Shown: in pieces, positions 2,965-48,730 of the stretch
How the letters are laid out: each line of letters starts with the position of its first letter
Numbering within the stretch: position 1 is the first letter of the stretch
Assembly (NCBI GenBank): GCA_027563935.2
Contig: CM050453.2
Location: forward strand, 84,542,665 to 84,606,664
Source of the DNA: Costus lasius
Lineage: Eukaryota > Streptophyta > Magnoliopsida > Zingiberales > Costaceae
Reading direction: 5' to 3'
Length of the DNA: 64,000 nt
Notes under the pieces: model-generated
What the model was told of the DNA's origin: nothing
The model's input: the letters and a program-made list of their open reading frames with translations, nothing else
Databases searched by the model: none
Program-made: the position numbers and the translations under genes

Positions 2965-3970
2965 CTACTCACTGCACTCAGCTGGGTCGTCGCCATCGTC
3001 GTCGACTTCCTCAGAGGAGTCGGAGACGTGGATAGTATCGTCAGCATCCTCATCGTCATCTCGAGGTGGTGGTGGTGCCATGTTGCACTGGAGAAAGATT
3101 TCGATCGACTTTACCGTCTCTACCAAGGTTGTTAGCTGCTTCCCTTGGTTCAGCTGCTCCTGCCGGAGAAGATGAAGCATATCGTCCGTAGAAGGGCGCG
3201 CTGTGGTCAGAGGCTGTCCACCGATAGAGGAGCTAGGGTCCATGTCAAGTGGTGTAGTCTGGTCTTCCGGTACAGTAGAGTCGGGATGAAGGCGCCAGTT
3301 GGCGCTATCTCTGATATCGGTACACGCAGTATTTGGTAGAACCATAGTGGTAGTGGTATCTGCGAAAGTAAGATGGTAAATGTCCCCTCGCTTGATGATC
3401 ATCTTCATCAAAAGCAGGTGCTCAAGGTCCAGTCGTCTGCTCCCTACTGCCTCTGGCTGTCCATAAGGGTTGTGGCCCAGAGATAAAGCGATAGTAGTGA
3501 TCATGCCACCAATACAAATATTCCCCTTTTGTGCGTGGGCGACACGGAGGAACTGCCGGGCAAGGTGATACCCAGCATTAATCTGAAATTGATGTAGAAG
3601 TCCCCACAAGCAAAGCAGTTCCGGCAGGCGGACGATCCCATCCCCATCTCGTGCAAAGATCGAGTGTGCGAGCAGAGGATGGGCATTGCAAATACATGGA
3701 TTTGAAATGGTGGAAGCCCTGGCATTCCTTGGTGAGTAGGCGGACATGGAGGAGATGCACTTCTAAAAGATGTCTTCGTTGAAATTCGACGGACCAAGCC
3801 TGGATGCGTAAGCTGGAAATCCAAAAATATCATTCAGATCGGCGACAGTGAGGCAATACTCGTTGTTGGAAAACCTGAAGGTGATCAAGCTTGGATTAGC
3901 TTCTAGCACCAAAACCTTAACCTCCACAGAACTGAGAAATTCGAGCGTAAAGGGGATGTAAGTAGGATGT
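2965..3970 (-). pseudogene. ATHILA ORF-1-like (env-position) protein of element C, C-terminal part
   Basis: In element orientation this is the downstream part of the env-position ORF, cut off from its first part (15294-15564) by element A. Visible blocks are PTYIPFTLEFLSS, then LLCLWGLLHQF, NAGYHLARQFLRVA, GGMITTIALSLG and IIKRGD. They align block by block with the A protein at 9544-10200. A stop interrupts the frame near 3762. The end has a probable coiled-coil (RQEQLNQGKQLTTLVETVKS) and then a strongly acidic tail of Asp and Glu runs. I see no signal peptide or clear membrane segment, so 'envelope' describes position only. The family match (Arabidopsis retrotransposon ORF-1 type) is from memory of its motifs. 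Confidence 0.8.
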
Positions 3971-4224
3971 TGATGCCTTGCATTTTAGTAGTAATATTCA
4001 TAGCTATTTCATGTTAAATCTAGGCTTGTTTTGACACTATTATACTCTTTTAAGGCTTATTTACTTGAATGCTTCGGAATCTTCACTTTTTCGTGCTTTT
4101 GTGGAATTTCTAGTAAAATCACCCATTTTCAACATATTTTGAAGATTCTGAGGCCATAGGGTGATTTCTTATACGAAGATGAAGCTACACAGGGCTTAAA
4201 CGGAGTTAGCCTGAAAAATGCGTC

Positions 4225-4434
4225 CTGGTGAACCCCATGCCCAGTCGCCAGCCAGCAGAACCTCACAGAGAGCTTCACGGCCGTGTGAACCCCGCGGGGT
4301 TCACTAGTATTCCTTTAGGCCGAGAACTGCACAGAACAAAGCACAGCCAGGTGAACCCGGCGGGGTTCACCGTGATTCTTTCAGCCAGAATACACATATT
4401 GAATCATGGCCAGGTGAACCCGGCGGGGTTCACC
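4225..4434. repeat. Palindrome array in the A LTR, four modules
   Basis: Modules of the form GGTGAACCC-GGGTTCACC lie at about 4227, 4285, 4350 and 4413, so about 60 bp apart. The module at 4285-4304 is a perfect 20-bp palindrome, GTGAACCCCGCGGGGTTCAC. The first is degenerate in this LTR, but its counterpart at 12147-12165 is a clean 8-bp stem. The same sequence type recurs before the env-position ORF at 8621-8842. Confidence 0.85.
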
Positions 4435-4563
4435 CGTGATTTCAACCCAGGCACACGCGGACACGACTTCGACTCGGATTTTACCTGATTTCTCACCCGT
4501 TTGAAGTCCGAATTTGGCAAGTAAGGACTCTATGGAAAGCTCTTTCAAAGGAGAACGTGTGGG

Positions 4564-4571
4564 ATATAAAA
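4564..4571 (+). promoter_or_regulatory. TATA-like box in the A LTR
   Basis: GGGATATAAAAGACC lies mid-LTR and is kept in the 3' LTR at about 14409. It suits a U3 promoter start for the element's RNA. No transcription start can be fixed from sequence alone. Confidence 0.5.
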
Positions 4572-5459
4572 GACCTAATTTTTATGCCCTAAGGAGGAAG
4601 TAATCATGCAAGGAAGTTGCTAGGGCAAAAGAACATGGTGGACATACGAGTTCGAGGCGATTTTCAGAGATCTGATCATCGGAGCACTTCAATTCTTGAG
4701 GATTTGTTTCGGTTATTGTCTCCTATCCCTTAGAAACTCTTCCTTGCAATTTTCCTATGTTAAAAGAGAGATTTTGAACGTTTCAATGATGATTATAGCG
4801 TAAACCCTATTTCGGGGCTCGATCGAAGCCCGTTGACGATTCTTATTCGCAAACTTTATTTTAATTCTATTATTTGGATTGATTTGTGAGCATATTTTAC
4901 TTTGATGCACTTATATCATGATTTTACCTTGGCCGAGTATTTTCATGTATTAGCCGTTATGATTCATATCGAGAGGAGGATCGTAGGGGTGGAATGTCTT
5001 AGTAAAACTTGCATGACCTCGACACGATAGTGCTTGGTCTTCGCTCGAGGGTTTCATAATCTGCCATAGAACTCATTGGGTTTGTCTAAAATGATCCACC
5101 GTGAGAGTAGGAGATTGTCTCAGTCGAACACCGGGCTGTACACTCGAGAGAGGGCACCTTGTACCCTAGGGTTAGATTCCTTGTGCAAAATCAATATTCC
5201 CAATAACTAATATCTTTCTTGTGCGATTAAGATCGTCATCGTGGTGGAAACCATAGCCCTGATATCTCTCTCATATCTACTCTCTACCGTCGTAGTTGTG
5301 ATTGCTTATTTTTTTCGATTTTAGTTCTCAAACCCACATTTTGATTCGCCTAGCTATTAAAACTTGGATTTTCTGGTACTTAACCTTGTTCCCTGTGGGA
5401 TTCGACATCTTTTATATTACTTCAACATAACTGTGCACTTGCAGGATGTGTCAAGTTTT

Positions 5460-5477
5460 TGGCGCCATTGCCGGGGA
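5460..5477 (+). promoter_or_regulatory. Primer-binding site of element A (tRNA-Asp)
   Basis: TGGCGCCATTGCCGGGGA begins six bases after the LTR end. It complements the 3' end of plant tRNA-Asp(GUC) with one mismatch (A for G). The same PBS is used by C, H and D. Confidence 0.88.
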
Positions 5478-5601
5478 ACAACGGTTGATATTAGTATACT
5501 TCTGAGAATTGGTAGACTAGGCCTTAGCTAGTTTTATTACTTTACTGTACTGCTATTTTCTTTTTCTCTTTATTTACTCACTGTCTTAGAACTTTATAAT
5601 T

Positions 5602-7373
5602 TTGACTGACAGTTTTATGCAAAGAAGTTCTAGGGCAGGTACATTCTTTAACATTGATTCAGTGATCGAGCGCACCTTCAGGACAAGAAGAAAGCTGAAC
5701 CAACTTCAGAAGAAAGAAAACATGAACCATCCTGGAGGAGAAAATCAGATAGAGCACAATCAGCTTGATGTGAACAATAACCGAGTGCCACAACCAATGG
5801 GGAATAACTACAACAATAGGACATTGAAAGATTATTCTGCTCCCTACGCTCATGGTTTTCAATCAGGAATTGCGAGGCCCGCTGTTGAGGCCAATAATTT
5901 TGAAAAAAAACCTGCTCTTCTTTCTATGGTGCAACAAAACCAATTTGGTGGTTCTCTTCTTGAGGACCCCAACATGCACCTCTCTATTTTTCTGGAATAT
6001 TGTGATATGCTAAAAATTAACGGTGTGTCTGCTGATGCTATCAGGTTGCTATTGTTTCCCTTCTCTTTGAGGGACAGAGCGAGAGCTTAGCTGCACACAC
6101 TACCTTCTACTTCAATAAGAACATGGGCAGAGCTTTCTCAAGCCTTTCTCTCCAAGTACTTTCCTCCATCCAAGACGATCCAGTTGGGGAACCAGATAAC
6201 GAGTTTCATGCAAAAAGATGGAGAATCCTTATATGAAGCTTGGGAGAGGTTTAAAGAGCTCCAAAGGATGTGTCCACATCATGGAATAGAGACTTGGGTT
6301 TTAATCCAAACGTTTTATAGCGGTTTAGATTACAACACAAGACTCACAGTGGACGCAGCAGCAGGAGGCGCCTTGATGAATAGGAGAGTTGAAGATGCAA
6401 TGAACCTTCTCGAGGGCATGGCAATCAACCATCACTAATAGACATCTGAGAGAGGTACCTCAACCAAGAAGTCAGGTAAGTATGACCTAGACTCTCTAAC
6501 TGCTCTTACGGCTAAGGTAGATAATCTGACTAGAAAGATTGATTCTTGGTCTGTTAATTCAATGGATGTTAACGCTATTTCTTGTGAGGTCTGTGGAGTT
6601 GTAGGTCATGCAGGGGCAGATTGTCAGGCAGGAGACGGACAGATGGCTGCAGTTCACTCTGAGCAATTGAATGTTGTTGGAAATTTCAATCCAACAACAG
6701 TCCATACTCTAGCACATTCAATCCAGGATAGGGCAACCACCCAAATTTCTCATACCGAACAACTCAGCCAATGCAGCCTGGACAAGTTCCATTACAACAA
6801 GCCCAGCCCCCACAAGAAAATTTCAGGCAGCCCCAGCAGAGCAATTTCAGACCACCAGGATTTCAGGCTAGGAACTATAATACGCCACCACCATAGCCAA
6901 GGCCGAATAATGATTCAAATTTGAGCAAACAACTTGAAGGACTTACAGATATGATGAAGCTTATGATGACAAGGATGGACTCCCTGGAGACATATAATAA
7001 AATGCTAGAGAGTCAGCTAGCACAACAAGCTAGCTCATCTTCCAGAGCACCAGGCAAGCTTCCATCCCAACCAAAGGTAAACCCGAGGGAGCATTGCAAT
7101 GCAATCTCCACTCGGAGTGACAAGCAACTTGAAGATCCAAAGATGCCGACCGATGACAGGATAGATGAGTTGACTACCGAACCGGTGATACCACAGTCAA
7201 ATGCAACACCGGTGGCACTGAACCAGTTGAAGAGGAGCGGCCCTATGTGGGACCGCCTGCATACAAGTCACCGATTCCTTTTTCACAGAGGCTTGTCAAT
7301 GCTAAATTGGACAAGCAGTTCGGTAGTTTTTAGAAGTTTTGAAGAAACCATATATGAACATCCCTTTCGTTGA
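5602..7373 (+). pseudogene. gag of element A (broken)
   Basis: This is the capsid/nucleocapsid precursor that would build the cytoplasmic particle. Family blocks are NFEKKPALLSMVQQNQFGG, LFPFSLRDRARA, AWERFKELQRMCPHHGIE and DAAAGGALMN. A CCHC zinc knuckle (CEVCGVVGHAGADC) follows near 6580-6625. Later come a Lys/Glu-rich helix and an EHCNAISTRSDKQL block. The frame breaks at a TAG after RARA (a Trp elsewhere), at TAA-TAG after INHH, and by a frameshift near 6690. Another in-frame start at about 5722 (MNHPGG) is possible. Confidence 0.82.
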
Positions 7374-8361
7374 TGCTCTTTCGCAGATGCCGACTTATGC
7401 AAAATTCCTGAAAGACATCTTATCAAACAAGAGAAAGCTAGAGGATCAAGGGACTGTTGCGCTTACTGAGGAGTGCAGTGCCATTATTCAGAACAAGCTC
7501 CCTCAGAAGCTTAAAGACCCAGGCAGTTTCTCCATACCCTGCCAAATTGGGGAGATGTCCTTTTAGAGAGCTCTGTGCGATCTAGGAGCAAGCATTAGCC
7601 TCATGCCATTATCACTTTGTAAAAGGCTAGATCTAGGGGATTTGCAACCTACTAACATCTCCATACAGCTTGTAGATAGATCGGTGCATCAACTAGTTGG
7701 TATTTTAGAGGACATACCTGTTAAAGTAGGAGATTACTTTATTCCTGCTGATTTTGTTGTTTTGGAGATTGATGAGGATGACAGGCTCCCTATCATTCTA
7801 GGGAGACCTTTTCTTGCTACTGCAGGCGCTGTCATGGATGTCAAGAATGGGAAACTGTCCTTGAACATCTGTGGTAATGCTATTCAATTTGATTTGGCTG
7901 ACACCTTGAAAAAACCTTCTCTTGCAGGAACATGTTGTAGCGTGGACATAGTGGAAAAAGCTGTACAGCATGCCGAGCCCTTCAGGAAAGAAGTTGACCC
8001 CTTGGAACTTGACCTGATAAACTCTATCAAGAACGCCGGTAGAAATGAGAATGCCAAGATCTATAAAGCATGCACAAAGTTCTGGCATGACAAGCGCATA
8101 GTGAAGAAAGAATTTCATGAAGGGGCTAAAGTACTTCTGTTTAATTCAAGACTTCGCCTATTTCCAGGAAAGCTTCGCACGAGATGGTCCGACCCCTTTA
8201 CAGTTCAGAAAGTTCAATCATATGGTGCCATCACAATTTGGATAGAATAAACTGGCAGTTTCACAGTTAACGAGCACCGCCTCAAGCACTACTTCGAAGA
8301 TGAGCGGGTCGAAAGAGAGAAAGTTTTAGCTCTCTCAGACCCCACGAATTTGCAACTCTGA
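7339..8361 (+). pseudogene. Protease fused in frame to the integrase C-terminal tail, element A
   Basis: The frame opens with the gag-protease linker (PYMNIPFVDALSQMPTYAKF). It then gives an aspartic protease with active-site CDLGAS and the flap-side block [13 protein letters not shown]. Around 8020-8045 it passes directly into integrase C-terminal sequence: [28 protein letters not shown], a GPY/F-like [13 protein letters not shown], then [10 protein letters not shown]. In C and D about 3 kb of RT, RNase H and integrase core lie between these parts. The junction keeps the frame. There is a TAG at 7564-7566 and a TAA at 8248-8250. It cannot encode polymerase, so any movement would have relied on enzymes from a relative. 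Confidence 0.85.
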
Positions 8362-8400
8362 AAACTCTCACGGTCGAGCTACCGACCTTAAACTAGCGCT

Positions 8401-8418
8401 CTTGGGAGGCAACCCAAG
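8401..8418 (+). other. Conserved post-pol hairpin, element A
   Basis: CTTGGGAGGCAACCCAAG lies 40 bases after the pol stop and forms a perfect 6-bp stem with a 6-base loop. It is preceded by AGCGCT. The same element is found just after pol in C (17062-17079), H (36632-36649) and D (48731-48748). Confidence 0.75.
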
Positions 8419-8620
8419 TTCTTGATTGCTTTTTAGTCTTCTTGCATTGATTTAGACCTTGTTTTACACTATTTATTTATTTTTCATTTAATTTTTGGTT
8501 TTCTAGAGGGGATCGCTACTAATTTGATGTCTTTTTATGTTGTAAGAGGAAGATGTAGTGCATGAAATTTTTCCAGATTTTTTCAGAATTTTTTGAGTTG
8601 ATCAGTGCACTTCACGGGCA

Positions 8621-8842
8621 GGTGAACCCCACGGGGTTCACCAGTATTTCTTTCTACGTAGGAATCCTCCAGTGAGCTTCACAGGTAGGTGAACCCCATG
8701 GGGTTCACCATCTTTTCTGCACACAAAGAAAACCATCAGAATACTTCACGGGCTGGTGAACCCCAGCAGGTTCACCCGTGCTTCTGTAGCAACAGCTCGA
8801 CACCAGTAAACATCACAGGCTGGTGAACCTGGGTGGGTTCAC
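8621..8842. repeat. Palindrome array before the env-position ORF of element A
   Basis: Four modules at 8621, 8688, 8755 and 8821 are spaced 66-67 bp. The one at 8688-8709 is a perfect 22-bp palindrome with half-site GGTGAACCCCA. The second and third are preceded by TTCACRGG; the spacers otherwise differ. The half-sites equal those in A's own LTR, not those in the other families. Confidence 0.85.
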
Positions 8843-9159
8843 CCGTATTTTCATCTGCTCCTCACCCCGACTCGAAGCGTTGCGTAGCTAGGGTTTCCAC
8901 TGCCCCCAAATGTCGCCAAGATCCCACCGATTTCGCCGCTCTCTCGTCTTTTCGAATATGAAGGGGATCTCTTCGGTCTAGATCAGAGTTTCCTTGCAAG
9001 CGGGACAGGTTTATTTTCTATTTAGTGCCCGATTTTTGCATCGCCAGATTTCTGAGTTCTGTTTCCGCCAATCTACCGCCGCCTTCGCTTCTCCTCGCGC
9101 TTCCAGCCAGATCTTCTCACCGAAACTTATCGGCCTCTTTCCGATCATCTTTAGCCATC

Positions 9160-10648
9160 ATGCCTCCAAGAACCAAAGCCATGGCTTCCAAGAAGACCGC
9201 ACCTCCACAGGTGTTCTCTGACTCGTTCGCCACCGACAACGAAGAGTACGAGCCATCACCAACTCCTCCATCCTTCAGGCCATCTTCAGCCACACCTGGT
9301 TCTTCATCATCTAGGCATGGACGCACGCCTACCAGCCGACCTCAGCCCTACGTCTCTCCCCCAAACGAGTTCGGGATCATCTTTCGCAACGCCAGGCAAG
9401 AGGAGCGTTATCAGACGCTGCGTCAACGCTGAGTGCTCAACACAAGATACCTTGACAGAGGCACGTTGCAGATGCTTGGGCTAAGAGAAGACGTTGACAT
9501 GATGTATGCAGCAGTTGGGTGGGAACAGTTCTAGCAGTTATTCTCTCCAACTTACATTGGCGTCACACTGGAGTTTCTGAGTTCCTTGGATGTGAAAGCA
9601 GATCCGATACTTGAGGATGACCCAGGCCGCCTGACCTTTCGCTTGGGTAACATTGAACATACTCTTACTCTTTCCCAGTTGCACAGCATTTATGGTTTTC
9701 CTGAGTCTTGTGTACGCATGGTCCCCACTGAGTACAGTGAGCAGAGTTTCTGGGGAGCAATTACTAATGAATATATACTCTGCTCGCGTGGCCTGTGCAT
9801 CCAGCCTATGCAACCCAGTGATTAAGTATGTCCACCGCGTATTGTCCCATACCCTCTTTGGCCGCGGTGAGAGTGATGGCATGATCTGGCAGACGGAGTT
9901 ATTCTATCTCTGGTGCATGCTCCACAGTTTCCGTGTGGACTCTGGGTACTATTTGGCAAAACAGTTCAGCCGCGTCGCCCGTTCTTTAAAGGGGGGGATT
10001 GTGATTGGCGGTTTGATCACCCCTTTGGAAGTTTCCTTGGGCGTCATTCCATACGGCACATTAGAGGCTACCAGCAACAACAGGCTTGAGATCGAGTCCT
10101 ATGTCGCCATGAAGCTGATTATTCGCAAAGGAGATTCTTATTGTATGACGTTCAAAGGGAGCCCATTTTGCCTGCCCTTACCGAACCCAGAGCGCACCAC
10201 TGTGCGTGTGTGAGGGAACTGGCGTATCTAGTCGACTGAAGATCAACAGCCTAACCCCGTTGACACCACACCACCTGCACCGGGCGCCTTCTCTTTTGGT
10301 GGCACCTCCTCTCATAATTCTATGATGTTTGTGTTGCAGGAAATTAGGGAGGAGCAACTCCATCAACGGGAGGTGATCGATCATATGGACACCACTCTAT
10401 CTTATATTCAGCAAGATCATTCTTCACGTTGGGAATCTATGAAAGCACATATGCAAAGGCAGAACAAGATGATGGGGTTCGTTTGGGAGAAGTTATCAAG
10501 CATGGATGAGAGGCTTGCCTTCATTAATGAAGAGAACATGGCACGCATGGAAATTTCTTCAGACGAGGAGGTCGAGCTAGACTATAGTGCACGCGGGAAG
10601 AGCAAGAGCTCACGAGCTATTGGCTCTCGCTCACGCAAGCGAAGATAG
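9160..10648 (+). pseudogene. ATHILA ORF-1-like (env-position) protein of element A
   Basis: The start is chosen at MPPRTKAMASKK (9160), which resembles the MPPQWKN start of the C copy. A Ser/Pro-rich leader is followed by RNARQEERYQTLRQR, VGWEQF, SPTYIGVTLEFLSS, LSQLHSIYGFPE, RVLSHTLFGRG, ELFYLWCMLHSF and GGLITPLEVSLG. A coiled-coil-like stretch (REEQLHQREVIDHMDTT) comes next. The tail is first acidic (SSDEEVELD) and then basic (SRSRKRR). Breaks are TGA at 9430 (likely from CGA), TAG at about 9532, a frameshift near 9790-9825, TGA at 10211 and one more TAG. I see no signal peptide or clear membrane span, and its function is unknown. Confidence 0.82.
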
Positions 10649-11873: not shown

Positions 11874-12276
11874 CTAGAATATTTTGATGTCTTGCATTTT
11901 AGTAGTAATATTCATAGGTATTTCATGTTAAATCTAGACTTGTTTTGACACTTTTATACTCTTTTAAGGCTTATTTACTTGAATGCTTCGGAATCTTCAC
12001 TTTTTCGTGCTTTTGTGGAATTTCAGGTAAAATCACCCATTTTGACATATTTTGAAGATTCTGAGGCCATAGGGTGATTTCTTATATGAAGATGAAGCTA
12101 CAGGTCAAATTTGGGCTTAAACGGAGTTAGCCTAAAAAATACAGCCTGGTGAACCCCGTTCACCAGCCTAGTCGCCAACCAGCAGAACCTCACAGAGAGC
12201 TTCACGGCCAGGTGAAACCCGCGGGGTTCACCAGTATTCCTTTAGGCCGAGAACTGCACAGAACAAAGCATAGCCA

Positions 12277-12281
12277 GGTGA
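12277..12281 (+). repeat. Left target-site duplication of the solo LTR
   Basis: GGTGA here is repeated at 14193-14197, exactly flanking the TG...CA ends. It is the arm of one of element A's palindromes. Confidence 0.88.
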
Positions 12282-13339
12282 TGTTGGTGTATATGCCCTA
12301 AGGACCTAATTCTGGTCCGTTACTTGTACTACTTGACATTGATATTTATATCATACTGGCATTGTCGTTATCATTATTTGTTTACATCTACGAATATGTA
12401 CTTATATGATAATGTCCCTGGAGACAGATTGGATCTGTGCTCAAACGATCGTCCCCAGTCAATGTACCTGAGTGGATAAGGGACTGGTACTTGTGAGACT
12501 GGTATATGGGCTGGCTAAGCACGAGGTGCTAACGCAGACATATGGGTATATCAGTGGTGGATATACTGGACCGACCCGCTGTGAGGCAATGACTTGGTGT
12601 CACAAGTTATCCTCACAAGTGATAGGAGATGCATTGATACCTTGACTTGAGGTCATTGGCCATTCTATATGGTTAGGGATATGCTTTGATACAACCTAAC
12701 GTCTTGCCGTAGTTGGGAGGTAATAACGGTTGTCATTGGGCATGTCAGTACGGCAAAGAGACTATAATGCATCTGTACTTAATTGCGATGATGGGGATGT
12801 CGATGTCGATATCCATTCCAATGACCTGGGTAGCAGCGATGCACTGCTAGGTGCCACTCACTGCTTATGGTGGCTTTTGGTCAGCACTGCCAGCGTCAGA
12901 GGAACCTACAGGGTCACACACCTTGATACTCGAGTTCTCGTAATGATCGAGAAGCCTTATGATCGAGTTATTGGGTAACTCGGATCGATTTTGGAGATTT
13001 CATCAGCGCCAATGGGCCTGATGAGATGGAAGAGATTTATTGAAGTCAACTTCCATTTACGATATATTAACCATGGTTAGCCCAGTTTGACCTAGGGTTA
13101 AATTGGATTGGATCCAAGGGCTTGGTTAACATGCATAATGGACATTGGGTTGGGCCCATTGAAAAGTTGGGCTTATTGGGCTCAAGGAGAAAGGGAATTG
13201 TAGGCGTGTGCTTAACTCTAGTTAAACTAGGGTTAACGCCTAGAATTTGAAATTAACCATGTGAGGGTTAATTAATTAATTAATATGAATCCTGATTGGA
13301 TTGGGACTAATTAATTGATTAATTATGGGCTGATTTATT

Positions 13340-13585
13340 TGAATTAATTAGAGTCCTAATTGGATTAGAATTTAATTAATTAAATAAATAATTAGAGTCC
13401 TAATTGGATTAGGACTTGAGTCAAAATTTGAATCTTGGTCAATCCGCCCACTTGAGTTCTAGTTGGACTAGGACTTGAGGGCTTGTTTTATCATGACCAA
13501 TTCGCCCACTTAAGTAGTCCTAATTGGATTAGGACTCACTTGATCAAACCACCAATGCAAGTCCTAATTAGATTAGGATTTGATT
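13340..13585. repeat. Palindromic repeats in the solo LTR
   Basis: AGTCCTAATTGGATTAGGAC and close variants lie at about 13350, 13397, 13453, 13519 and 13560. Each is an inverted repeat with arms of up to 9 bp and a 3-base loop. TTAATTAA-rich sequence precedes them. Repeated palindromes are known in Sirevirus LTRs. Confidence 0.75.
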
Positions 13586-13651
13586 CCCCCTTTCTCTCCT
13601 AGCCGCAAATTCCAATTGAATTGTGGCCACACTCTAAACCGCCTCTTGTCT

Positions 13652-13659
13652 CTATAAAT
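13652..13659 (+). promoter_or_regulatory. TATA box of the solo LTR
   Basis: TCTCTATAAATAGAGACC contains a canonical plant TATAAATA on the plus strand, about 540 bp from the LTR end. This supports plus orientation. Confidence 0.6.
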
Positions 13660-14192
13660 AGAGACCTTGGCCGCCCCTCTTGATGGATAGTCTGATCTTG
13701 AAGTCGTGAGCAACATCATGGGCGAGAGCAAGAGGTGGTCGCGAGGTGGTGGCGCACTTCATCTTCTTCCATCAAACCCTAGCCGCAAGCAAGCTTCCTC
13801 CTTTCCTCTTGGCGCTTGGAGCATTGGAGCTTGGCGACTTGTCTCCTTCCCTCTTCCTCCTTGGCGCAACTTCTCTAGAAGGTGGCACAAGTGAAGTAGA
13901 GATCTCTCAAGGCTTGGATCTTCTTCCCGAGGCTAGCACCGGGCGTGGAAGAAGAGAGCTCGAGGTGATCCATGTGTGTGAGACTGCAGAGGGTGCACGA
14001 TTGGGTGCCTATGTTGACATCGGCCTCACCCTACTTCAAGGTATTTTCTATCACATCATGTCGACTCTCTCGCTTGACGATCTTCACTGGTTTTTGGGAA
14101 TGACCTGTTTCGGGGATATTCTTCCGCTGCGCAATGTATTTGTGTCCATAAACCTCTGAAAAATTATAAAATATCCCCGGGGTTTCCCAACA

Positions 14193-14197
14193 GGTGA
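14193..14197 (+). repeat. Right target-site duplication of the solo LTR
   Basis: GGTGA directly follows CCAACA and matches 12277-12281. Confidence 0.88.
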
Positions 14198-15293
14198 AGC
14201 CGGCGGGGTTCACCGTGCTTCTTTCAGCTAGAATACATAGATCGAATCACGGCCAGGTGAACCCAGCGGGGTTCACCCGTGATTTTAACCCAGGCACGCG
14301 CGGACATGACTTCGACTCGGATTTTACTTGATTTCTCACCCGTTTGAAGTCTGAATTTGGCAAGTAGGGACTCTATGGAAAGATCTTTTGAAGGAGAACA
14401 CATGGGATATAAAAGCCTTAATTTTTATGCCCTAAGGAGGAAACAATCACATGACGAAGCGGCTAGGGCGAAAGAACATGGCGGAAATACGAGTTCGAGG
14501 TGATTTTCGGAGATCTGATCATCGGAGCGCTTCGACTCTTGAGGATTTGTTTCGGTTTATTGTCTCCTAGCCCTTAAAACTCTCCCTTGCAATTTTCCTA
14601 TGTTAAAAGAGAGATTTTTGAACATTTCAATGATGATTGTAGCGTAAACCCTATTTCCAGGCTCGGTCGAAGCCCGTTGACGATTCTTATTTGCTTTTAT
14701 TTTAATTCTATTATTTGGATTGATTTGTGGGCATATTTTACTTTGATGCACTTATATCATGATTTTACCTTGGCCGAGTATTTTCATGTATTAGCCATTA
14801 CGATTCATACCGAGAGGAAGATCGTAGCGGTGGAATCTCTTAGTAAAACTTGCGAGGCCTCGACACGAGAGTGTTTGGTCTTCGCTTAAGGGTTTCATAA
14901 TCTGCCATAGAACTCATTGGGTTCGTCTAAAATGATCCACCGTGAGAGTAGGAGATTGTCTTAGTCAAACACTGGGGTGTACACTCGAGAAAGGGCACCT
15001 TGTACCCTAGGGTTAGATTCCTTGTGCAAAACCAATATTCCAAATAACTAATATCTTTCTTGTGAGATTAAGATCGTCATCGTGGTAGAAACCGTAGCCC
15101 TGATATCTGTCTCATATCTACTCTCTACTGTCATAGTTGTGATTGCTTATTTTTTCGATTTTAGTTCTCAAAACCACGTTTTGATTCGCCTAGCTATTAA
15201 AACTTGGATTTTCTAGTACTCAACCTTGTTCCCTATGAGATTTGACATTTTTTATATTACTTCGACATAACCGTGCACGTGCGGGATGTGTCA

Positions 15294-15564
15294 CCTGCGC
15301 ATATTGCAAGAAGCGCCCCCAACCGAACTGCCTAAACATCCAGAGTAGATCATCAAAAATCCCCAACGCGGCTAGTGATGGAGGATCTATGTATCGGGTG
15401 TTGATTATGCGGCGGTTTGATAGAACTTGGTATCGAGCAGCTTGGTGATTATCCCTCATTTGAATCTCAGGCGGAGCGGGTTGTTGCTGCGGCGCTACGG
15501 GTCGAGGACTGGTGGCTCCAGCTGGTCGTTTGCCAGTATTTTTCCATTGTGGCGGCATGGTCAC
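15294..15564 (-). pseudogene. ATHILA ORF-1-like (env-position) protein of element C, N-terminal part
   Basis: This reads from 15564 downwards: MTMPPQWKN, a Pro/Ala/Gln-rich leader, the family blocks RYQVLSNRRIINTRYIDPPS and FRQFGWGRFLQYAQ, and then element A's LTR. The next family block (PTY...LEFLSS) resumes beyond A at about 3965. The two parts form one gene split by the insertion. The likely start is the MPPQ methionine at about 15558, by analogy with MPPRTK in A. Confidence 0.8.
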
Positions 15565-15889
15565 TCAAGTGGATAATAATGGAACAAAGGCTTGAGCGAA
15601 AAGAACATAATACGTTGTGAGAAAGAGGTTGAAAACCTAGATTGAGAGCTCGCCAGAGGTCGCTGATGTCGCCGAAAGAGTCACCGGCAGTCAGTTGCCG
15701 ATGGCGAGGTAGGTGGCGGCGTAAGGTGGGGCACACAGTGGGGTCGGTGACTCATACGGAAGGGAAAATCGGGAACCCTAACGAAGAGATTTGGGGCGAG
15801 AGTTAAATGGGTAGCTTAGCGGGTCGGGCTTGCCAGGCGGATCCGTTAAGCTGCCAAGGTTTTGCACCTGAGATTCCTGTCAGGACCTG

Positions 15890-16375
15890 GTCATGAAACT
15901 CTGTAGGAGCATCCGCTGGGAAATCATGATCGAGAGATTCGTCGGTACCCATGCATGATCTTCTCGCAGATTTTTTATGCAAGTCTTCACGGTGGTGACT
16001 TCAACCACCGGGCAGCCGTGACGTCCTCGTAAATTTTGTACTCATTCTGTCTCCTAAGAATCTTCCCCATGATTTTCGTCATGACCCACCCCTGATTGCT
16101 TCTACAAGATTGTGCGCAAGTTTCACGGCTGTGCCTCTAGTTACGGGTCTGCCGTGAACCTTTCGGCAGATAAGTCTCATTTTGCTTCTTCAGAAAATCT
16201 CAGTCACGACTTTCAGCGTTCCCTAGTCATGATTTCCTTGTGTAATTCTATGTTGCTGATTATGGCTGTGGCTTTTGTCACCTTCCTACCGTAATATCCT
16301 CAGCGAGTCTTTCTGATGTTGAACTGAGAGAGAATCACGGTCGAGATTTTTGTCAAGACTCGCCCGTGATTTTGG
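15890..16375. repeat. Hairpin array before the env-position ORF of element C
   Basis: At least five imperfect inverted repeats of TCACGG...CCGTGA or TCATGA type are spaced about 70 bp. Clear ones are CTTCACGGTGGTGACTTC with GGCAGCCGTGACG at about 15989-16025, TTTCACGGCTG with TCTGCCGTGAACC at 16120-16160, and AATCACGGTCGAG with CTCGCCCGTGATT at 16333-16374. C's LTR carries the same half-site type (1190-1320 and 24325-24465). Confidence 0.75.
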
Positions 16376-22637: not shown

Positions 22638-24714
22638 TGATAGCGCCCACAAATGTAGTAGGGGTTCCCGCAAGTGCACGGGCCTATCAAAGTAATAAAA
22701 TATCGATCCCATAGGGACTAATGGGCAAGTACCGATAGATCTCGAGATTGCTAGCTAGACTACGTCGAAATTGATGAAGTTTAAGACGATGAAATAATTA
22801 AATGCGCAAAACGTAAACGGGAGAAATAACACGAGAGGATTATAATGAGAAGATGCATCAGGATATGGGTTCACAGCTTTGACTTCTTACAATTGAATAG
22901 TTAAACTCTATTGCCAATGTCCTGTCTAGTTCAAGGGATTTAGCTTCCTTTGTCACGTAGGTAGCTCCCCTCCAACAACCTCGTTCGCTCCCACAGACTA
23001 GATTATCGGTCCAATCCGTAGGGTTCTAATGCGCGGTCGGACTAGAGTCTCCCCGCTATGTCTAAGCTCCTTATAATCCCCTTAAGTAAGTACAGATCCA
23101 CAAGCGAGTTAAAACTCCTAGAGATGCTGATTAACAAACCTCACTTAAGGTGATTAAAGGCTCAAACACTCCCTTTCGGGTAGTGTAGGCATAGCACACT
23201 AACGAAATGGATAAACTCTCAACCAAATGGGTCTGATGCGCGGTCGGACTAGAGTCTCCCCGCTACATCTAAGCTCCTTATAACCCCTTCAAGTAAGTAC
23301 AGTTCCGCAAGCGAGTTATCTCCTAGAGAAGCTGATTAACAAACCTTACTAGAGTGATTAAAGGCTCAAGCATGCACTTTCGGATAATGCATCCCTATGA
23401 TCCCACGAGTAAGTACAGTTCCGCAAGCGAGTTTCCTCCTAGAGAAGCTGATTGACAAACCTCACTAGAGTGATTAAAGGCTCAAGCGTATCCCTCCAGA
23501 TAATGCTTCCCATTAGTCCCATGAGTAAGTACAGATCCGCAAGCAAGTAAACTCCTAGAGATACTGATTAACAAACCTCACTCAGGTAACTAAAGGTTAA
23601 GCATGCTCTTTGGGGTTACGCAGGCAATGTGTACTCATAGGGTCAAGAAAGAACTTTAGGCTAATAGAGTCAAACCATTACAACTAGTAATTCATCAAGG
23701 GCTACCCCACATCCTGATTTGGTGTTTAGCCTAACATGTTCATGGTGAAAGCATAATCAATGTACTCAAACCTAAACATCAAGCATAATACCAGACTTGC
23801 ACAAGAGTTGTAATAGAAAGGTAAGATCATGCTATGTTTTGCAAAGATTATATAATAAGCGTAGCAAATTGAGTACGAATCTAAGATCTTTCTTACAAAT
23901 TATCCCTAAGATGCTCACGCAAGATGATATCTTGAATAAGTGCTCATGCGTGGCTCTTCCTTCCCTTCCTCCTCAAGCTTTGCCGCTTCTCCTCTACCGT
24001 GCGAATCCTCTTGCCGAGAGATTGAAGGCTCCTTTCTCCTCTCTTCTTTTCACCCTTTCATCCTTCTCCCCTTTGCGCTTTTCTCCCTCTTCCCATACCC
24101 TGCCAAAGCTCTCTGAAATTGCCATCTCTGCTCAGCCGAAAGAAAACTCTACCGCCAGCCTCCATGCCCTACACGCCGCCAGCCAACTTTTCCTCCATGA
24201 AATGATGATTCTGTGGCCGAATTTGATGTCTAAAGCTTGCTCCTCGCCCCTTTGTCAATGGTGAATGAAAGTCCTAAGTGCCCTTCAGCCTTCCCTCAAG
24301 TTAGATTGAAGAAATCTGGGCTAAAATCATGATTTCGTAACAGGCGGGTCCGCGATCTCAGGCGAGAATTTGGTCATGAGCCAGTCGTGATTTATCGCTT
24401 ACAGCTGAAGTGTGGAGATGAGTCACGGGCATGATTCTGGTCGAGACCCAGTTGTGATTTCCTACGAAGGCTTCAATGACTCTGAAATCTTCCAATTAGG
24501 AGCATCCTGAGTTAGGATGAGCTCTTCTACTGCAAAAGTTCCAGAATCTACCCCTTTTGTGGTCGTTTCGACCTGAAAACGTAAAAATACCAAGAGAGGT
24601 GCAGATTCCATAGATGTATCTAAATAAAGGCAATTATGAGACTTAAAGTCGTAAAACGGGGATGATTTCATTAGTAAAATTACATGTATAACTCTATATA
24701 AATCTGTGTCAACA
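22638..24714 (-). repeat. 5' LTR of element C
   Basis: It is 2077 bp, runs TGTTGACACAGATTTATATA to GGGCGCTATCA in element orientation, and is followed by AGTTTT and the PBS. It pairs with 1-1571. The LTR at 26086-28025 is a relative with the same TGTTGACACA start and CCCCTATCA end. A hairpin region lies at 24325-24465. Confidence 0.92.
23087..23640. repeat. Direct repeats in the 5' LTR of element C
   Basis: These are the same units as at 2-545, starting at about 23087, 23293, 23407 and 23524. Confidence 0.75.
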
Positions 24715-26085: not shown

Positions 26086-28025
26086 TGTTGACACAAATTT
26101 ATATAACATTTTACGTGTAATTTTACTAACGGAATCATCTCTGTTTCATGGTTTACGTCCCATTATTGCCTCAATTACTATACATCTATGGAATCTACAC
26201 CTCTTTTGGCATTTTCACACTTTCATGTGAAAACGACCACAAAGAGGGTGGATTTTGGGACTTTTGAGGTTAGAGGAACCCCTCCTAATTCAAGAAGAGT
26301 CTAACTGAAAATTCTTAGATTTATCGGAGCCTCCGCTGAAAATCACAACCAGGTCACGATTAGAATCACGCTTGTGACTCGTCTTTGTGCCTGAAGCTAC
26401 AACTGAAAATCACAACCGGGTCACGACCAGAATCACGCCCGTGATCGCAGACCTGCCTATTTCGAAACCGTGATTTTAATCAGGGTTTCTTTAACCTAAC
26501 CTAAGGGGAAGCTAGAGGGCAACCAAGTTCTTTCTCCCCCATTGACCAGAGGCCCTAGAGCAGCCTTTGGAGGGAAAAATTTATCAAAAGAAATGATGAT
26601 TTCATGGAGATAAGGCTGGTAGCATTTGCAGGATATGGGGAAGGAAGCAACGAAGACTTTCTGGGCTGGAAAGCTGCAGTAACTTTGCAGAGCCTTGGAA
26701 AGGGGTAGCAGCCCACTAGGAGGAGGGGAATAAGAGCCTTTGGAGGAACACTTGCAAAGTGGATTGGATTCGGCAGGAGGAAACAAGAGGAAGAAACCAT
26801 CGCCTGGGAAAAATCCAGCGCAGGGCAAGAACGAAGACATCTTTTGCAGCGCAAGGAGAAGAAGAAGAACTCCCCAAAACTCTCCACTGATCATCTCAAG
26901 CATCAAATCTGGTTTGGGGAAGTCCTCAATCTCATTTTCTACACCTTCTAGATAAAGATTTGGAATGAATGAGCATATCTTTATGTGTACTTATGTTACG
27001 AACATGGATCTTGTAGCTTAAACCTTGAATCAGGATGTGGGCTAACCCTTTGATGACTTACTAGTTGTAATAATCTTACTCCAAATGCCCTAGATCCTTG
27101 CTTAACCTTATGTGTGCTCTTTGCCTACATTACCTGAAAGAGGATGCTTGAGCCTTCAGTCGCCCAAGTGAGGTTCATAAACTAGAAATTCTAGGAGGAG
27201 ACCCCTTGACGAACTGTACTCACCTAGGGGAATTGTCAGGATTTTAGACGTGTCGGGAAGACCAAAAGTTTGCCCACGCGTTGAAATCATTCGGTTGAGA
27301 GTTTATCTAGTCTGTTTGTGTCCTTTGCCTATGCTGCCCGAAAGGGAGCATTTGAGCCTATACTTTCCTGAGCGAGGTTCATAAATCAGGGGCTCGGGGA
27401 AACCCGTTGACGAACTATACTTCCTGGCGTGAGTATTAGGATTTTAGACGCAGCTGGTAAACCAAAAGTTCGCCAGTGCATTGGATTGTCTCGGTGCCCT
27501 TTGCTTGCGCTGCCCGAAAGGGAGCGCTTGAGCCAGTATTCCGCAGGTGGAGGTTCCTAAATCAGGAATTCTGGGGGGGACCTCTTTGTAAACCTGTGCT
27601 CGCCCTGAAAGTATTAGGAACTTAGACGTGTTTTGGTAGACCACAAGACCATCCGAATGTCAAAACCTTACGGATTAGATCGGTAACCAGTCCATGGGAG
27701 TGGATGAGGGTATCGGTGGGAATGACTTGTATGTTAGGAGCGGAATCCCTTGAACTAGATTGGATGTTGGCAATGGAGTTTAATTATTCAATTGTAAGGA
27801 GTCAAAGCGGTGGACCCATATCCTGATGCATCTTTCATCAAATTTCTCTCGTACGATTCGTCCATTTACACTCTCGTTCATTTAAGTAGTTCAACATTTA
27901 AACTTCACTAATTTTGATGTCGTCTAGCTAGCAAATTCGAGATCTGTTGGTACTTGCCCATTAGTCCCTGTGGGATTGATATTTTACTACTTCGATATAC
28001 CTGAGCACTTGCAGGACCCCTATCA
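26086..28025 (+). repeat. 3' LTR of element G
   Basis: It is about 1940 bp, runs TGTTGACACAAATTTATATA to GGACCCCTATCA, and belongs to the element C LTR family. Hairpin half-sites (AATCACAACCGGGTCACG with AATCACGCCCGTGAT) lie at 26340-26440. A diverged series of GCCCGAAAGGGAGC repeats lies at 27080-27660. Open frames at 26496-26955 have no recognisable domain and are not called genes. Confidence 0.85.
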
Positions 28026-29442: not shown

Positions 29443-30165
29443 TGATATTATGCATATATATAATATATTGTGGCTTAATTCTATTATTATTTTAGAGCAA
29501 AATGCATACTTTGTCTCATTTATTTGTCTAAATACTTTATATTATTCAGAATCTTCACTTTTCCTTGGTTTTATTAAAATGTAGGGATTTCACCCAAACA
29601 TTGGTGGAATTTGGAAGATCTGAAGTTATGGGATGATCCCTCATGATGAGACAAAGCTACATGTCAAATTTCAGCTCAAACGGAGTTTTCTACGCTCTTC
29701 ACGGGCATGGCCGTGAATCCATGCACGGCTGTGTATGAGCCTGCTTTCCCAGGCTGCGTCGAGCCATTCACAGGCATGCCCGTGCATGCATGCATGACCA
29801 TGAAGGACTCAGCTGACTTTTCCAAAACATGACGAGATATTTTCAGGCACACTCGTGAACCCATACATGACCGTGAAGAGTTAGTTTTCTAAAAAATAAA
29901 GATCACCGAACCATTCATGGGCATGGCCGTGCATCCATGCATGGCCGTGAACGGTTCCACCTGTTCGACATCCATTCAATTTTTCATCAATTTCTTACTA
30001 TTTTAGAGCAGAATTCACTGAAATTTCTTGGAGACCTTTCTAACTTAATAACAAACATTTTGGGACAAGGATCATGCAATTTCGTGGAGCGGTTGGGGAG
30101 AACGAGGCGAAAGGGCGACACCTAGGGTTTGACGGCGATTTTGGCTTTCCTTGTTTTTTATGAAA
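29443..30165 (+). repeat. 3' LTR of element F, truncated
   Basis: It starts TGATATTATGC. The start matches, inverted, the LTR at 35066-35320 of element H. The right end merges into duplicated LTR scraps (GTATAGAATCTTCACTTG occurs twice at 30171-30206) where element J begins, so this boundary is approximate. Confidence 0.75.
29698..29954. repeat. Hairpin array in the F LTR, four modules
   Basis: Modules TTCACGGGCATGGCCGTG / CCATGCACGGC at 29698, 29765, 29841 and 29912 are spaced 67-76 bp. Element H, which has this LTR type, carries the same half-sites in its internal spacer at 36457-36500. Confidence 0.8.
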
Positions 30166-30475: not shown

Positions 30476-30680
30476 TTTCACGGCCTTGGCCATGAGTTTT
30501 TCGGCCGGCTGCGAGTTATGCGTTCGAAGGGCGAAAATGCGGCTAGGTTAAAAAGTCCACAGAAACTTTCACGGGTGAGGCTGTAAATCCTTCATGGTTT
30601 ATGATTCTTTCTGTGTACAAAGAGCCTTATTCATAGAGACATTTACGGCCGCAGTCGTAAAGTGTTTACGGGCCATGAAT
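30476..30680. repeat. Hairpin modules in the J LTR
   Basis: TTTCACGGCCTTGGCCATGAG, TTTCACGGGTGAGGCTGTAAA and ATTTACGGCCGCAGTCGTAAAG form imperfect inverted repeats about 80 bp apart. They are positional equivalents of those in the D LTRs. Confidence 0.65.
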
Positions 30681-34820: not shown

Positions 34821-35320
34821 GGCCGTGAAGAGTCCAGAAATGCAATATTTAGATTTCGCCGACAGCTTCACGGGCATGGTCGTACATCCATGCACAGCCA
34901 TGAAGATGTCCGCCTATTCGACACCTGTTTGATTTTTCGCCCATTTCTTGTTATTTTTGGACTGGAATTTGGCATAAATTTGCGCAAACCTTACTAACTT
35001 ACACATGGACATTTTGGGACAAGAATCACATGATTTCGTGGAGCAAATTGGGGGGTCGTGAACTCTATAGAGGGCTCCATTTTAGCTGAAAATTGACATG
35101 TAACTTCGTCTCATCATGAGGAATTATCTCATATCTTCAAATCCTCCAAATTTCACCGATTTTGGGTGATAATCCCTACATTTAAATAAAACCAAATAGA
35201 AGTGAAGATTCAGAATAATATGAAGCTTTTAAGCAAATAAATGAGACAAAACTATAAAATCAACCCTAGAATAATAACAAAATTAAGCCGTAATGTGCTA
35301 TATATATATGCATGTTATCA
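34821..35320. repeat. Partly inverted LTR (F/H family)
   Basis: 35066-35320 is the start of the F-type LTR on the minus strand (TGATAACATGCATATATATA from 35320). 34821-35065 is later LTR sequence but on the plus strand, matching 29860-30110 (GACATTTTGGGACAAGAATCA, CATGATTTCGTGGAGC). The orientation flips at about 35065. The LTR is cut off at 34820. Confidence 0.75.
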
Positions 35321-36456: not shown

Positions 36457-36500
36457 ATCACGGCCATGCATGGATGCACGGCCATGACCATGAATGTCAT
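36457..36500. repeat. Hairpin module in the internal spacer of element H
   Basis: TCACGGCCATGCATGGATGCACGGCCATGA is an imperfect inverted repeat with the half-sites of the F/H LTR array at 29698-29954. Confidence 0.7.
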
Positions 36501-37883: not shown

Positions 37884-40010
37884 TGATAGGGTCCCGCAAG
37901 TGCACGGTTCTATTACGTAATAAAAAGTATTTGATCCCACAGGGACTAGGGGTCAAGTACTAATGCATCCGCAAGTGCACAGATTCATCGAAGTAATAAA
38001 AAGATTATCGTTCCCAACGAGGATCTGGCGGTCAAGTACTGATTACACGATTGATCTATATCTAGACGAATCAAATCTGTGGTTTTTTGCTTTGGAGACT
38101 TCTAAGTACAAATAAAAAGAAACAGATATAGTGTTTTGGGTAAAAATCAATTTGGATAAAATTAGGATTCGGGGTTTCACCACGCTGACGATTATGAATT
38201 TGATGAAAATAAACTTTTGAACAGAAAATTAAAGCGTTGAAAGGGATTTTTCCTAAGGTACAGATTACCTCCTCCTGAAGGGTAATCCGGTACTTAATTA
38301 TGTTAATTCCCTACTATCGTGACAATTAACGTAATTATATCCTTTAAGTTTTGTGAAAAAACATGAAATTTTTCAAGTGAATCCGAACTACTCTTGTGAT
38401 CGAATTCATAGGTTTGAAAAGAATAGATCAGACATCGCGATTCACCTCTCGGTCCTTCTCTCGATGTCTCAACGTAATAAAACTTGTCCAAAGTATTAAA
38501 GCGGGATACGTACAATTCTAATCAAATCAACTCAATAATATTCTTAACAAAGATTCATACAAAAGATGTAATTTATAAATCAATCAACAGGCTACTTCCC
38601 AAATCCCGAAAAGGAGTTTACACATTCATGTTCAAAGCAAACAATATGTTCATCGATGAAAATTGCATGAAAACTCAATAATATTACAAGAAATCGCTAG
38701 ACAAGATACTAGAAAGGCTTCCCCTCAATCTGGAGATGAAGATGAAACCTCTAATTCTTTCTTTGCATGGCTTTCCTGTTCGAATTCTACCCTGAAAGTG
38801 ATTTTCGCCGCCGCCACTGCCTCCGTTCGTTTTCATCCATAGAAGGCCCTCTTAAACCCTCCAAAATCCTTCCTTTTATAGTTTAATCAGTGTAGAACCC
38901 ATCTAAGAAGGCTTCTACAAAGTTTGGTTCAATTCCGACTCGATTCGGGGTCGAATCGAGTGAAAAATGTGAAGGGGCAGAAATATTCATGGCCCGTAAA
39001 CTATTTATGGCCATGGGTGTGAAAGTTTCTGTTTACTGCACATAAGTGTTTTCACAGTTCGTGAATATATTTATGGCCACGAGTGTGAAAGTTGCGTTTG
39101 ACCTCCGATTTGGCTCAAATTTGACGTACAACCTCATCTTTTCATCACCAATCATCCTATGGCATCAAAACTCATAAAATCCATTGTTTTGAGTGATATT
39201 CATGGCCTACAAAAGATTCACGGGTGCAACCGTGAATATTGCATCTGGCCTCCGTTTCACTCCAAATTTGATGTGCGACCTCGTATTTTCCTTGGGAATC
39301 ATGCTATGGCATCAAAAATTACAAAATCCATCATTTTTATGTCATTTTACTTGCATTTTCATAAAAAACCATGAAAAGTGAAGATTTTATACCAAGTGAA
39401 GTAAAAACACTAAAAATTGGTATAAAATCATAAAATAAGCCCAAAATATAATATAAAATACAGGCAAAATTATGATGTAAATGCAACTCATCAGTCTATT
39501 GAAAGCTAGGCGGTCAAATAATGACAAGAGTTGCTAATGTCCTAATGCAAGAAAGTAAACTTAAACAAATCTAGAGCAAACAAAGGTGTGAGAATTCTTG
39601 AGAGAAAATCAGAGTTTTAGGTTTCACCACACTGAAGGATAAGGGAAAGATGATGCTAAGTGTTTTAACTCATTTATTCTATGCTCTTAAGGAAATTCTT
39701 CCTAGGGTACAGATCATTCCCTCTCAGGCCACGATCCAGTATCTAACTTAACCCAAGTCTCCTACTCTCGTGGCTTACTAGGTTAAGCAGATCTAATGGG
39801 TTATGTGAAGAATTATTAACTCCTCGAGTAATTTTGACCTACTTTCGTGATCAAAATTAAAAGTCCAATCCTAAGGGTTCTGACGTTGTGGTTCACCTCT
39901 TAGTACTTCCCACAACATCTAAAACATATGAATGCATGGCCAGTGCAATAATATGAAATAGATGCAATCAGGATTGAGCAGTCAATAATCTTTGCCTAAT
40001 CTATTTAACA
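37884..40010 (-). repeat. 5' LTR of element H, split and truncated
   Basis: 37884-37960 is the LTR end (GTGCACTTGCGGGACCCTATCA in element orientation). 39494 to about 40010 continues it (the GGTTTCACCACACTGA region). Between them lies a D-family LTR. The left part of the LTR is missing where it meets element I. Confidence 0.65.
37961..39493 (-). mobile_element. Solo LTR of the D family
   Basis: It is 1533 bp and aligns with the D LTRs, from TGATGAGTTGCATTTACA at 39493 to GTGCACTTGCGGATGCATTA at 37961 in element orientation. Foreign LTR sequence flanks both sides, so it is a solo LTR. The neighbouring five bases (agtac, gtcta) do not match cleanly. Hairpin modules lie at 38984-39241. Confidence 0.75.
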
Positions 40011-47830: not shown

Positions 47831-48730
47831 TCCCCTTTTTTTTTTAGAGTAAGCCGGCCAGGGATAACTCATAACCTCAAATTATACAACCAGAGGAGTT
47901 GAAGCAAATCTCAAATTAAATATATACATCACCAAATTTCTATCCATAAAAAAAACTTTTTATCAGCCAAAGGAAGATAAATTAAACTTAACGTATAAAA
48001 ACACCATGCATATATCGTTTGAACATATAACAATCTATATATAAATTTTATCAATACCAGAATTGAACTTACTCAACAGTCTAAGTCGATATGAAATCTC
48101 AAAAATTTTCTAAGTCATCAAATTAAATGCCCAAAATGCTTTCTAAGTGCAAAATTGAGGGTAAAAACAATCTAGTGCATTCTAAAAAAATCATAAATAT
48201 TCAGAATTCATATCTATAAAGCTTTAAAGGAATAGCAAAACATGAAGGAACACCCTAGACTAAAATTGTTGCATGTGTATAAACATTAATAGAATGAATG
48301 AAGGATTTCAGAAAAATTTTTGCAAGAGTTCTCTTTGTAAAGTTGACGAAACCCTGTACAATTATATCAAAAGAATGAAACATGACTTAGAAAAATCCAA
48401 AAACTATGTCAAATCAAAGATATTCATATTTTATACAGTAAACAAAACTCAAACATCAAATACCGTCATGTTTCATCATCTAAATCACTTCTACATATAC
48501 TCACAATGGAGATATCACAAGAATCACGGTTTATGATTGATTCATGGCTGCACCCGTGATGATCTCGTTAATCACTTTTCTCTCACATAAAAATTCTCCA
48601 AAAATTCCTACAAATAAAACAACTTATTAGAAGATTTTCCATCAATAAAGTTTCATCAAAACATGCTATAAAATTCCTAAAAATTTAAATAAAATTAAAA
48701 ACTAAAATTAAGAGTAATAAAAGTTAAAAA
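47831..48730 (-). other. Spacer after pol of element D
   Basis: AT-rich with no credible ORF. It holds a hairpin module at 48522-48562 (AATCACGGTTTATGATTG / GGCTGCACCCGTGATG), at the place where C and A have arrays. Here no env-position ORF follows it. Confidence 0.6.

Follow-up and report, generated by a model that had tools for sequence, protein, structure and literature searches.

The question raised by this stretch of 64,000 nucleotides from Costus lasius (GenBank assembly GCA_027563935.2, contig CM050453.2, positions 84,542,665–84,606,664 of the forward strand; hereafter the window, numbered from its first letter) is why one of its retrotransposons carries the same family of palindromes at two separate places. 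This element, here called A, is Athila-like, has long terminal repeats (LTRs) and lies on the plus strand. Its GGTGAACC/GGTTCACC dyads occur both upstream of the TATA box, in the U3 part of the LTR, and in the spacer before its third open reading frame (ORF), an ATHILA ORF-1-like gene in the env position; the second site is called pre-env below. A's dyads are one version of a wider module bounded by TYAYGG...CCRTRA. Several Athila families do carry such nested dyads, constrained in their arms, both in U3 and ahead of the third ORF. The data given below establish where the modules lie, that more than one family has them, that their arms are conserved, that complementary variants are in excess and that the two sites match within families. 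As to function, the modules are probably cis-regulatory DNA dyads, by which U3 and pre-env site would come under the linked control of one putative dimeric factor.

The inner dyad of A is GGTGAACCCC/GGGGTTCACC, with the inner core GTGAA/TTCAC. Four modules are found in U3 of the 5′ LTR (3971–5453, plus strand, delimited by LTR self-match and TG...CA ends): the first is a left half-site only (4227–4235), its right arm being lost; the second is a perfect 20-bp dyad (4285–4304) with an outer half-site TCACGG at 4275; the third is a 9+4+9 dyad (4350–4371); and the fourth (4404–4439) has outer TCATGG...CCGTGA at +30 around an inner dyad at 4413–4434. The TATA box (4565–4570, plus strand) follows the last inner dyad at a distance of 131 bp from its end, and the outer half-site at 126 bp. 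The four pre-env modules are at 8612–8647 (inner dyad 8621–8642), 8679–8714 (a perfect 22-bp dyad, 8688–8709), 8746–8781 (8755–8776) and 8813–8848 (8822–8843). The 3′ LTR holds module 1 as a full dyad (12146–12166), module 2 (12202–12237) and module 4 (14247–14282; outer TCACGG...CCGTGA at +30, inner dyad 14256–14277). The dyads at 4285, 4350 and 12146 have no strand; all other modules are on the plus strand. Outside the modules at 4404 and 14247, at least one of the two outer half-sites is decayed.

The original prediction had described eight half-site modules in A's LTR and pre-env spacer, and they are found where it put them, the two perfect palindromes of 20 and 22 bp included, save for corrections to single modules: the last pre-env dyad starts at 8822 rather than 8821, and at 4227 there is a left half-site but no full dyad, which is seen only in the 3′ LTR counterpart. 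The regular spacing, given as 58–67 bp, becomes 57–66 bp from start to start for the LTR modules, and those before the ORF are all exactly 67 bp apart. The proposed excess over shuffled sequence was also found: GGTGAACCC, with at most one mismatch, occurs 41 times in the window versus a mean of 9.56 and a maximum of 17 in 100 shuffles. The eight modules are thus real, but as described they are only part of a wider module with outer TCAYGG/CCGTGA at +30.

This wider module, consisting of outer TYAYGG...CCRTRA 29–30 bp apart and a family-specific inner dyad, is present in every Athila family recognised in the window, and other LTRs of the window have different palindromes at a similar place above the TATA box. 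Inverted TYAYGG...CCRTRA pairs number 17, of which 13 have a spacing of 30 bp and four one of 29 bp, whereas dinucleotide shuffles of the window give means of 0.025 and 0.035, respectively, and a maximum of 1 in 200 shuffles. The layout is fullest in families C, D, E and G, where it reads a(TYACGG)-6-b(CCGTRA)-5-c(TYACGG)-1-d(CCGTRA): an outer dyad a·d surrounds an inner dyad b·c, and the module is 36 bp long. Two adjacent dyads (a with b, c with d) were considered and rejected, their covariation being no higher than under permutation. The inner dyad is GGCCGTGCAT/ATGCAYGGCC in G and H; in B the outer pair is at 29 bp and the inner arms are weaker. Module anchors were placed by us, partly by eye.

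Outside A, U3 modules are found in B's 5′ LTR (two, 67 bp apart, 24356–24457, minus strand), in a B-type LTR (two, likewise 67 bp apart, 26343–26444, plus), in LTR G (four, the last with the inner dyad GGCCGTGCAT/ATGCATGGCC, 29699–29950, plus), in LTR C (three, 30478–30678, plus), in a G-type LTR fragment (one, 34868–34903, plus), in LTR D (three, 38987–39235, minus) and in the 3′ and 5′ LTRs of element E (three each, 46819–47021 and 55301–55503, both minus). Pre-env modules, of which A has four, number eight in B (15862–16369, minus), where four retain a recognisable half-site pair at 29 bp, and one each in E (48524–48559, minus) and H (36458–36493, minus), the latter sharing its inner dyad with LTR G. 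The unit period is 67 bp in A's pre-env array and the two B-type LTRs and 57–93 bp in the remaining arrays, except for one 147-bp gap in D.

All 17 outer pairs in the window fall in intervals of U3 or pre-env DNA; these cover 17.9% of the window and were delimited after the modules had been seen. From the end of the last U3 module to the TATA box the distance is 106–107 bp in C, D and both LTRs of E and 126 bp in A; neither the B-type LTRs nor the truncated LTR G showed a comparable TATA. The second cluster stands directly before the third ORF in A and B, and pre-env arrays are found in eight genomic copies. An ATHILA ORF is present in A and B, the elements with multi-module pre-env arrays, and array size tracks ORF presence in 4/4 elements, which is a small sample. 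Below the pre-env array, YTAGGG stands at +27 in 5/9 spacers and anywhere in 8/9. A conserved promoter block shared there by A and B was looked for and rejected, the best local alignment being matched by 97/200 shuffles.

The two sites of a family match each other, in one family only weakly. Inner identity between pre-env and LTR modules is 0.78 in A versus at most 0.38 to other families, 0.82 versus at most 0.49 in G/H, and 0.46 versus at most 0.38 in B, and the correct pairing of U3 with pre-env families is the best of 24 pairings, the families having been assigned by us (H was joined to G also by a matching 3′ end and LTR start, 77% over 561 bp). Genome-wide (1.28 Gb), the A-type palindrome GGTGAACCCN{0,10}GGGTTCACC has 13,585 matches and its reversed control 0; TTCACGGN{22,25}CCGTGAA has 3,069 versus 5 in the control, and among 50 matches listed the spacer is exactly 24 in 47 and 23 in 3. 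Among the matches listed on one contig, C1, 19/19 A-type regions proved by their flanks to be U3 (16) or pre-env (3, one of them, L038, classed by a 57-bp flank match), and 10/10 regions of other families, sampled from the TTCACGGN matches listed, are likewise U3 (8) or pre-env (2).

Arms are conserved more strongly than what lies between them. Between the LTR and pre-env modules of A itself, agreement is 0.94 for the arms and 0.43 for what remains of the unit. An arm test on LTR pairs within the window was judged uninformative because both LTRs decay freely after insertion. LTR copies were compared as found by a flank excluding the modules (30 loci, with L011, the window's 3′ LTR, omitted); the resulting set of 22 also omits L007 (window), L016, L034, L028 (upstream part replaced) and the near-duplicates L018, L022 and L023. 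In this set minor bases have a frequency of 0.029 in arms, compared with 0.073 in linkers and 0.106 in centres; in columns outside CG/CHG it is 0.021 in arms versus 0.047 in linkers, and a permutation of arms versus linkers plus upstream U3 over such columns gives P 0.003. The TATA-proximal module has both arms in 21/22 LTRs, the other three in 14, 13 and 12. For the pre-env site, 20 mid-element regions were taken blind, of which 13 had no pre-env flank match, two (L056, L064) an edge-only or weak one, and five were usable, among them L059, which is interrupted by an inserted LTR past the first module; L038, L045 and L051 were chosen by pattern and not by flank. Five copies (four chosen by upstream flank and that of the window) show pairwise divergences of 0.047 in arms, 0.254 in centres and 0.191 in linkers, and 0/10,000 permutations were as extreme.

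Complementary arm variants also occur together in excess, a test for which had been suggested. At the C/T position of the outer arms the genome holds 3,069 C·G (control 5) and 1,164 T·A (control 33) modules, together 4,233 matched, versus 603+717=1,320 mixed (control 4+7); independence predicts about 3,103 matched, and the odds ratio is 8.2. At the next position outward (A/T) 3,069 T·A (control 5) and 2,785 A·T (control 10), together 5,854 matched, compare with 844+946=1,790 mixed (control 4+3). These copies are kin. For 33 non-redundant modules of the window, 66/132 positions flanking the half-sites pair with their own partner versus 44.8 when permuted (0/5,000 as high), and the effect is seen within families C/D/E/G/H (P 0.02) and B (P 0.009). 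The inner dyads of 41 distinct modules, selected on outer arms only, show 187/369 own-partner pairs versus 170.1 in the main register (0/5,000 as high), 164/328 versus 153.7 in a neighbouring register used by G (P 0.0036) and 145/369 versus 135.6 in a third (P 0.012); six other registers show no pairing excess. In a smaller window set of 16 modules the b·c hexamers gave 44/96 versus 41.7 (P 0.21). Among 99 A-type modules, counted after removal of spurious matches and three near-duplicate LTRs, double complementary changes number 4 versus 1.2 expected (P 0.02), all at one position.

Taken as cis-regulatory DNA, each dyad would be bound by a dimeric sequence-specific protein, which may come from the host or be the element's own third-ORF product. 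The U3 modules would form an upstream activating array about 105–130 bp above the TATA box, and through the second array one and the same factor would govern the ATHILA ORF-1-like gene or a promoter internal to the element that serves it, full-length and third-ORF transcripts thereby being switched together. Between families the inner dyad would turn over at both sites simultaneously, via duplication and loss of tandem units, with selection for binding as the presumed cause.

Several observations weigh against this account. The genomic regions classified, 29 in total, are all on contig C1, and the remaining counted places are unclassified. Conservation holds for substitutions but not for deletions: in the 22 LTRs the gap frequency is 0.153 in arms, 0.230 in centres and 0.038 in linkers, that is, deletions are concentrated in the palindromes. 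The original prediction that palindromes are kept while their surroundings diverge is thus borne out for substitutions in both LTR and pre-env copies, where arms do not decay as fast as spacers, but not for deletions. The position of the pre-env array fits a second promoter, as had also been suggested, but no TATA follows the array in any of nine spacers within the 109–317 bp examined. No env match was found in E and H, each of which has one pre-env module, and in E the inner identity of 0.48 between pre-env and LTR modules hardly exceeds that to G (0.46). The hexamers of the window (124/198 paired versus 124.9 permuted) show no covariation beyond the shared motif, and the pairing effect at the flanking positions is absent within A. 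Finally, copies share ancestry and are not independent events, which may mimic covariation, and the P values overstate the support.

A special case of regulation by a dimeric factor is that the factor is the element's own ATHILA ORF-1-like protein. In this proposal, which we regard as rather unlikely, the third ORF of each Athila family would encode a sequence-specific DNA-binding protein that recognises the dyad of its family both in U3 and ahead of the ORF. The element would thereby regulate itself and might, in the manner of VANC, counter silencing, through a circuit that would evolve as palindrome arms change in concert. The array directly precedes the gene, and the dyads are family-specific and matched at both sites. 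There are also precedents: VANC proteins bind family-specific tandem motifs (PMC5735166, PMC10398659), and in a sunflower Athila relative the third-ORF protein, with PF20167/PF03078 similarity, has predicted nuclear signals (PMC11728184). Against this, a DNA-binding domain was not found: PF03078 is the only Pfam match above cut-off, PF20167 is below it, and other weak Pfam matches are unrelated. The PDB holds no relative (E 1), the fold model is unusable (AlphaFold pLDDT 38.7), and modules are retained in elements without the ORF. Among 387 candidates, no homologue of the ATHILA ORF piece was found at E 1e-5.

Alternatively, the modules could be selfish or neutral tandem repeats that spread by slippage and template switching, were copied between U3 and spacer, and persist via recent amplification rather than function. 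Unit number does vary (4 or 5 in pre-env copies), single-arm deletions are frequent, and a satellite-like module array with a period of about 208 bp exists on C1. Neutral repeats would not be expected, however, to show arms that outlast linkers in copies chosen by their flanks, a two-site layout kept by several families despite different inner dyads, 29/29 classified genomic regions at U3 or pre-env, or an excess of matched over mixed arm variants, and we consider this explanation rather improbable.

The same palindromes could act as hairpins in the element transcript, serving packaging, export or stability, a candidate that had been named from the start. Full-length RNA contains both arrays (3′ U3 and spacer), and both arrays of A surpass shuffled sequence in folding (z −4.66 for the LTR, z −5.74 for pre-env), but folding of B's pre-env array is not unusual (z −0.92, 19/100 shuffles being as good), and the U3 array lies upstream of a promoter. 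A stem in sense RNA tolerates G-U and rejects A-C. Mismatch counts in A-type arms lean slightly this way (17 G-T, 12 A-C), whereas A-C exceeds G-T in the outer arms (25 to 19) and in the inner dyads of the 41 modules (35 to 17 in the main, 42 to 9 in the neighbouring register), the latter excess being what an antisense-strand stem would give. Because there is no consistent G-U excess, a double-stranded DNA dyad read by a putative dimeric protein is the simpler account and fits better than a sense RNA hairpin, which we regard as unlikely. That the modules chiefly serve the host, as hairpin-prone repeats seeding small RNAs and silencing, is very improbable: A-type arrays fold well, and the palindromes of maize Sireviruses are reported as small-RNA hotspots (PMC5311732, PMC10760457), but this would be a cost to the element and leaves unexplained why elements retain the arms.

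For DNA dyads at these two positions the closest known architecture is that of the RM boxes of Sireviruses, which the original prediction had mentioned only as LTR palindromes but which occur upstream of ENV as well (PMC2829016). They too are palindromic repeats that differ in sequence between elements and lie in the upper LTR half above the TATA box and just before ENV; 77/79 linker copies are upstream of ENV, and none occurs in four RM-bearing elements without ENV (PMC2829016). A regulatory role and an internal promoter were proposed by the authors without proof (PMC2829016). Correspondingly, U3 palindromic repeats above the TATA box are found here in A, C, D and E, and in A and B the third ORF is immediately preceded by another cluster. 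However, Sireviruses are Ty1/Copia elements, whereas Athila, to which A is assigned by an ATHILA ORF-1 family ORF also present in B, is Ty3/Gypsy. The RM consensus is 10–20 bp long with a CGG-CCG core in all but Tnd-1, whereas the Athila module is a nested one of 36 bp in units often about 67 bp apart; and linker copies in Sireviruses occur only with ENV, whereas Athila E and H keep one pre-env module without an env match. The Athila feature thus differs from the RM architecture in superfamily, in module structure and in persistence where the third ORF is gone.

Other systems resemble the modules in part. The target repeats of VANDAL/VANC are also family-specific short tandem motifs in non-coding element DNA that evolve together (PMC5735166, PMC10398659), but the motifs shown there are non-palindromic and part of a DNA transposon whose own protein has been demonstrated to bind them, whereas an element-encoded binder of the Athila modules is putative. 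SIRC repeats, reported in Arabidopsis in ATHILA2 and ATHILA6A among others, are short and interspaced and some contain palindromes (PMC10342631); they are CRISPR-like direct-repeat cassettes, and in the accessible part of that paper no U3 and pre-env pair or constrained dyad is described. In Retand elements, tandem repeats specific to each family lie between pol and the 3′ LTR, close to an additional ORF of the 3′ internal part (PMC11963269), but a paired LTR copy and a palindromic module are not described in the part accessible. The literature searched, from which subscription papers are mostly absent, yielded no account of Athila palindromes paired between U3 and the pre-env site.

The modules bear on how the Athila-type third ORF is expressed and on what its role is. 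Since a family-matched dyad occurs in a second superfamily besides Sireviruses, it is suggested that plant env-position genes may commonly share a switch with the element's main promoter. If the third ORF does encode a binder of its own dyad, the puzzle of the plant "env" would in part be a puzzle about a regulator, with Sireviruses as the parallel in the other superfamily. Moreover, the modules offer exactly defined, testable DNA probes, and their thousands of natural variants, in which arms are either paired or unpaired, can be correlated with expression or methylation.

Some observations on the arrays stand apart from these questions. Pre-env arrays differ by one whole unit, having five modules in L057 and L063 and four in L058, L074 and A of the window, and the alignment break between the two forms falls inside palindromes. 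At C1:17052422-17059688, B-type modules recur, often about 208 bp apart, over 7 kb, as if an LTR or spacer repeat had expanded to a satellite-like array. In L059 (pre-env, C1:19.75 Mb) B-type-LTR-like sequence begins shortly after the first pre-env module, and in the LTR copies L016 and L034 foreign DNA ends just above module 4; because these three hold foreign DNA by their modules, the arrays may attract insertions. Viral contigs with two exact matches to the A palindrome were followed up and set aside: they hold single palindromes and were judged by reading to be non-Athila, and no integrase relative was found.

Element A itself is a deletion derivative. Beside its 5′ LTR, TGGCGCC at 5460 is a candidate primer binding site of the Athila type. 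Its interior runs from gag-like and protease-like stretches, recognised from where they lie and from their resemblance to B and E (a tested piece of this region has no Pfam match), to the C-terminal end only of integrase, the pol-env spacer and the ORF from 9160; at 7600–8250 the protease-like stretch runs directly into the integrase C-terminus. A reverse transcriptase match is absent from A and present in E and B. The env-position ORF region (9160–10648, plus strand) has stops and frameshifts and belongs to the ATHILA ORF-1 family (PF03078; 20.7 bits at a cut-off of 20.2, versus 44.2 bits in B), and by this third ORF A is, as judged from sequence similarity, a member of the Gypsy lineage Athila. 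A sits within the ATHILA-type ORF of the minus-strand element B, pieces of which flank it at 2965–3970 and 15294–15591; a 5-bp target duplication is not visible at these junctions. On C1 too, little DNA separates the LTR from the pre-env array in A-type elements (LTR arrays at 9.0225/9.0307 and 9.598/9.606 Mb), which suggests a pol-less family. A's 3′ LTR (11885–15293) is interrupted within its module 3 by a nested LTR (TGTTGG...CCAACA, 12282–14192; region 12277–14197), and the 5-bp target duplication of the latter, GGTGA, is the dyad half-site itself.

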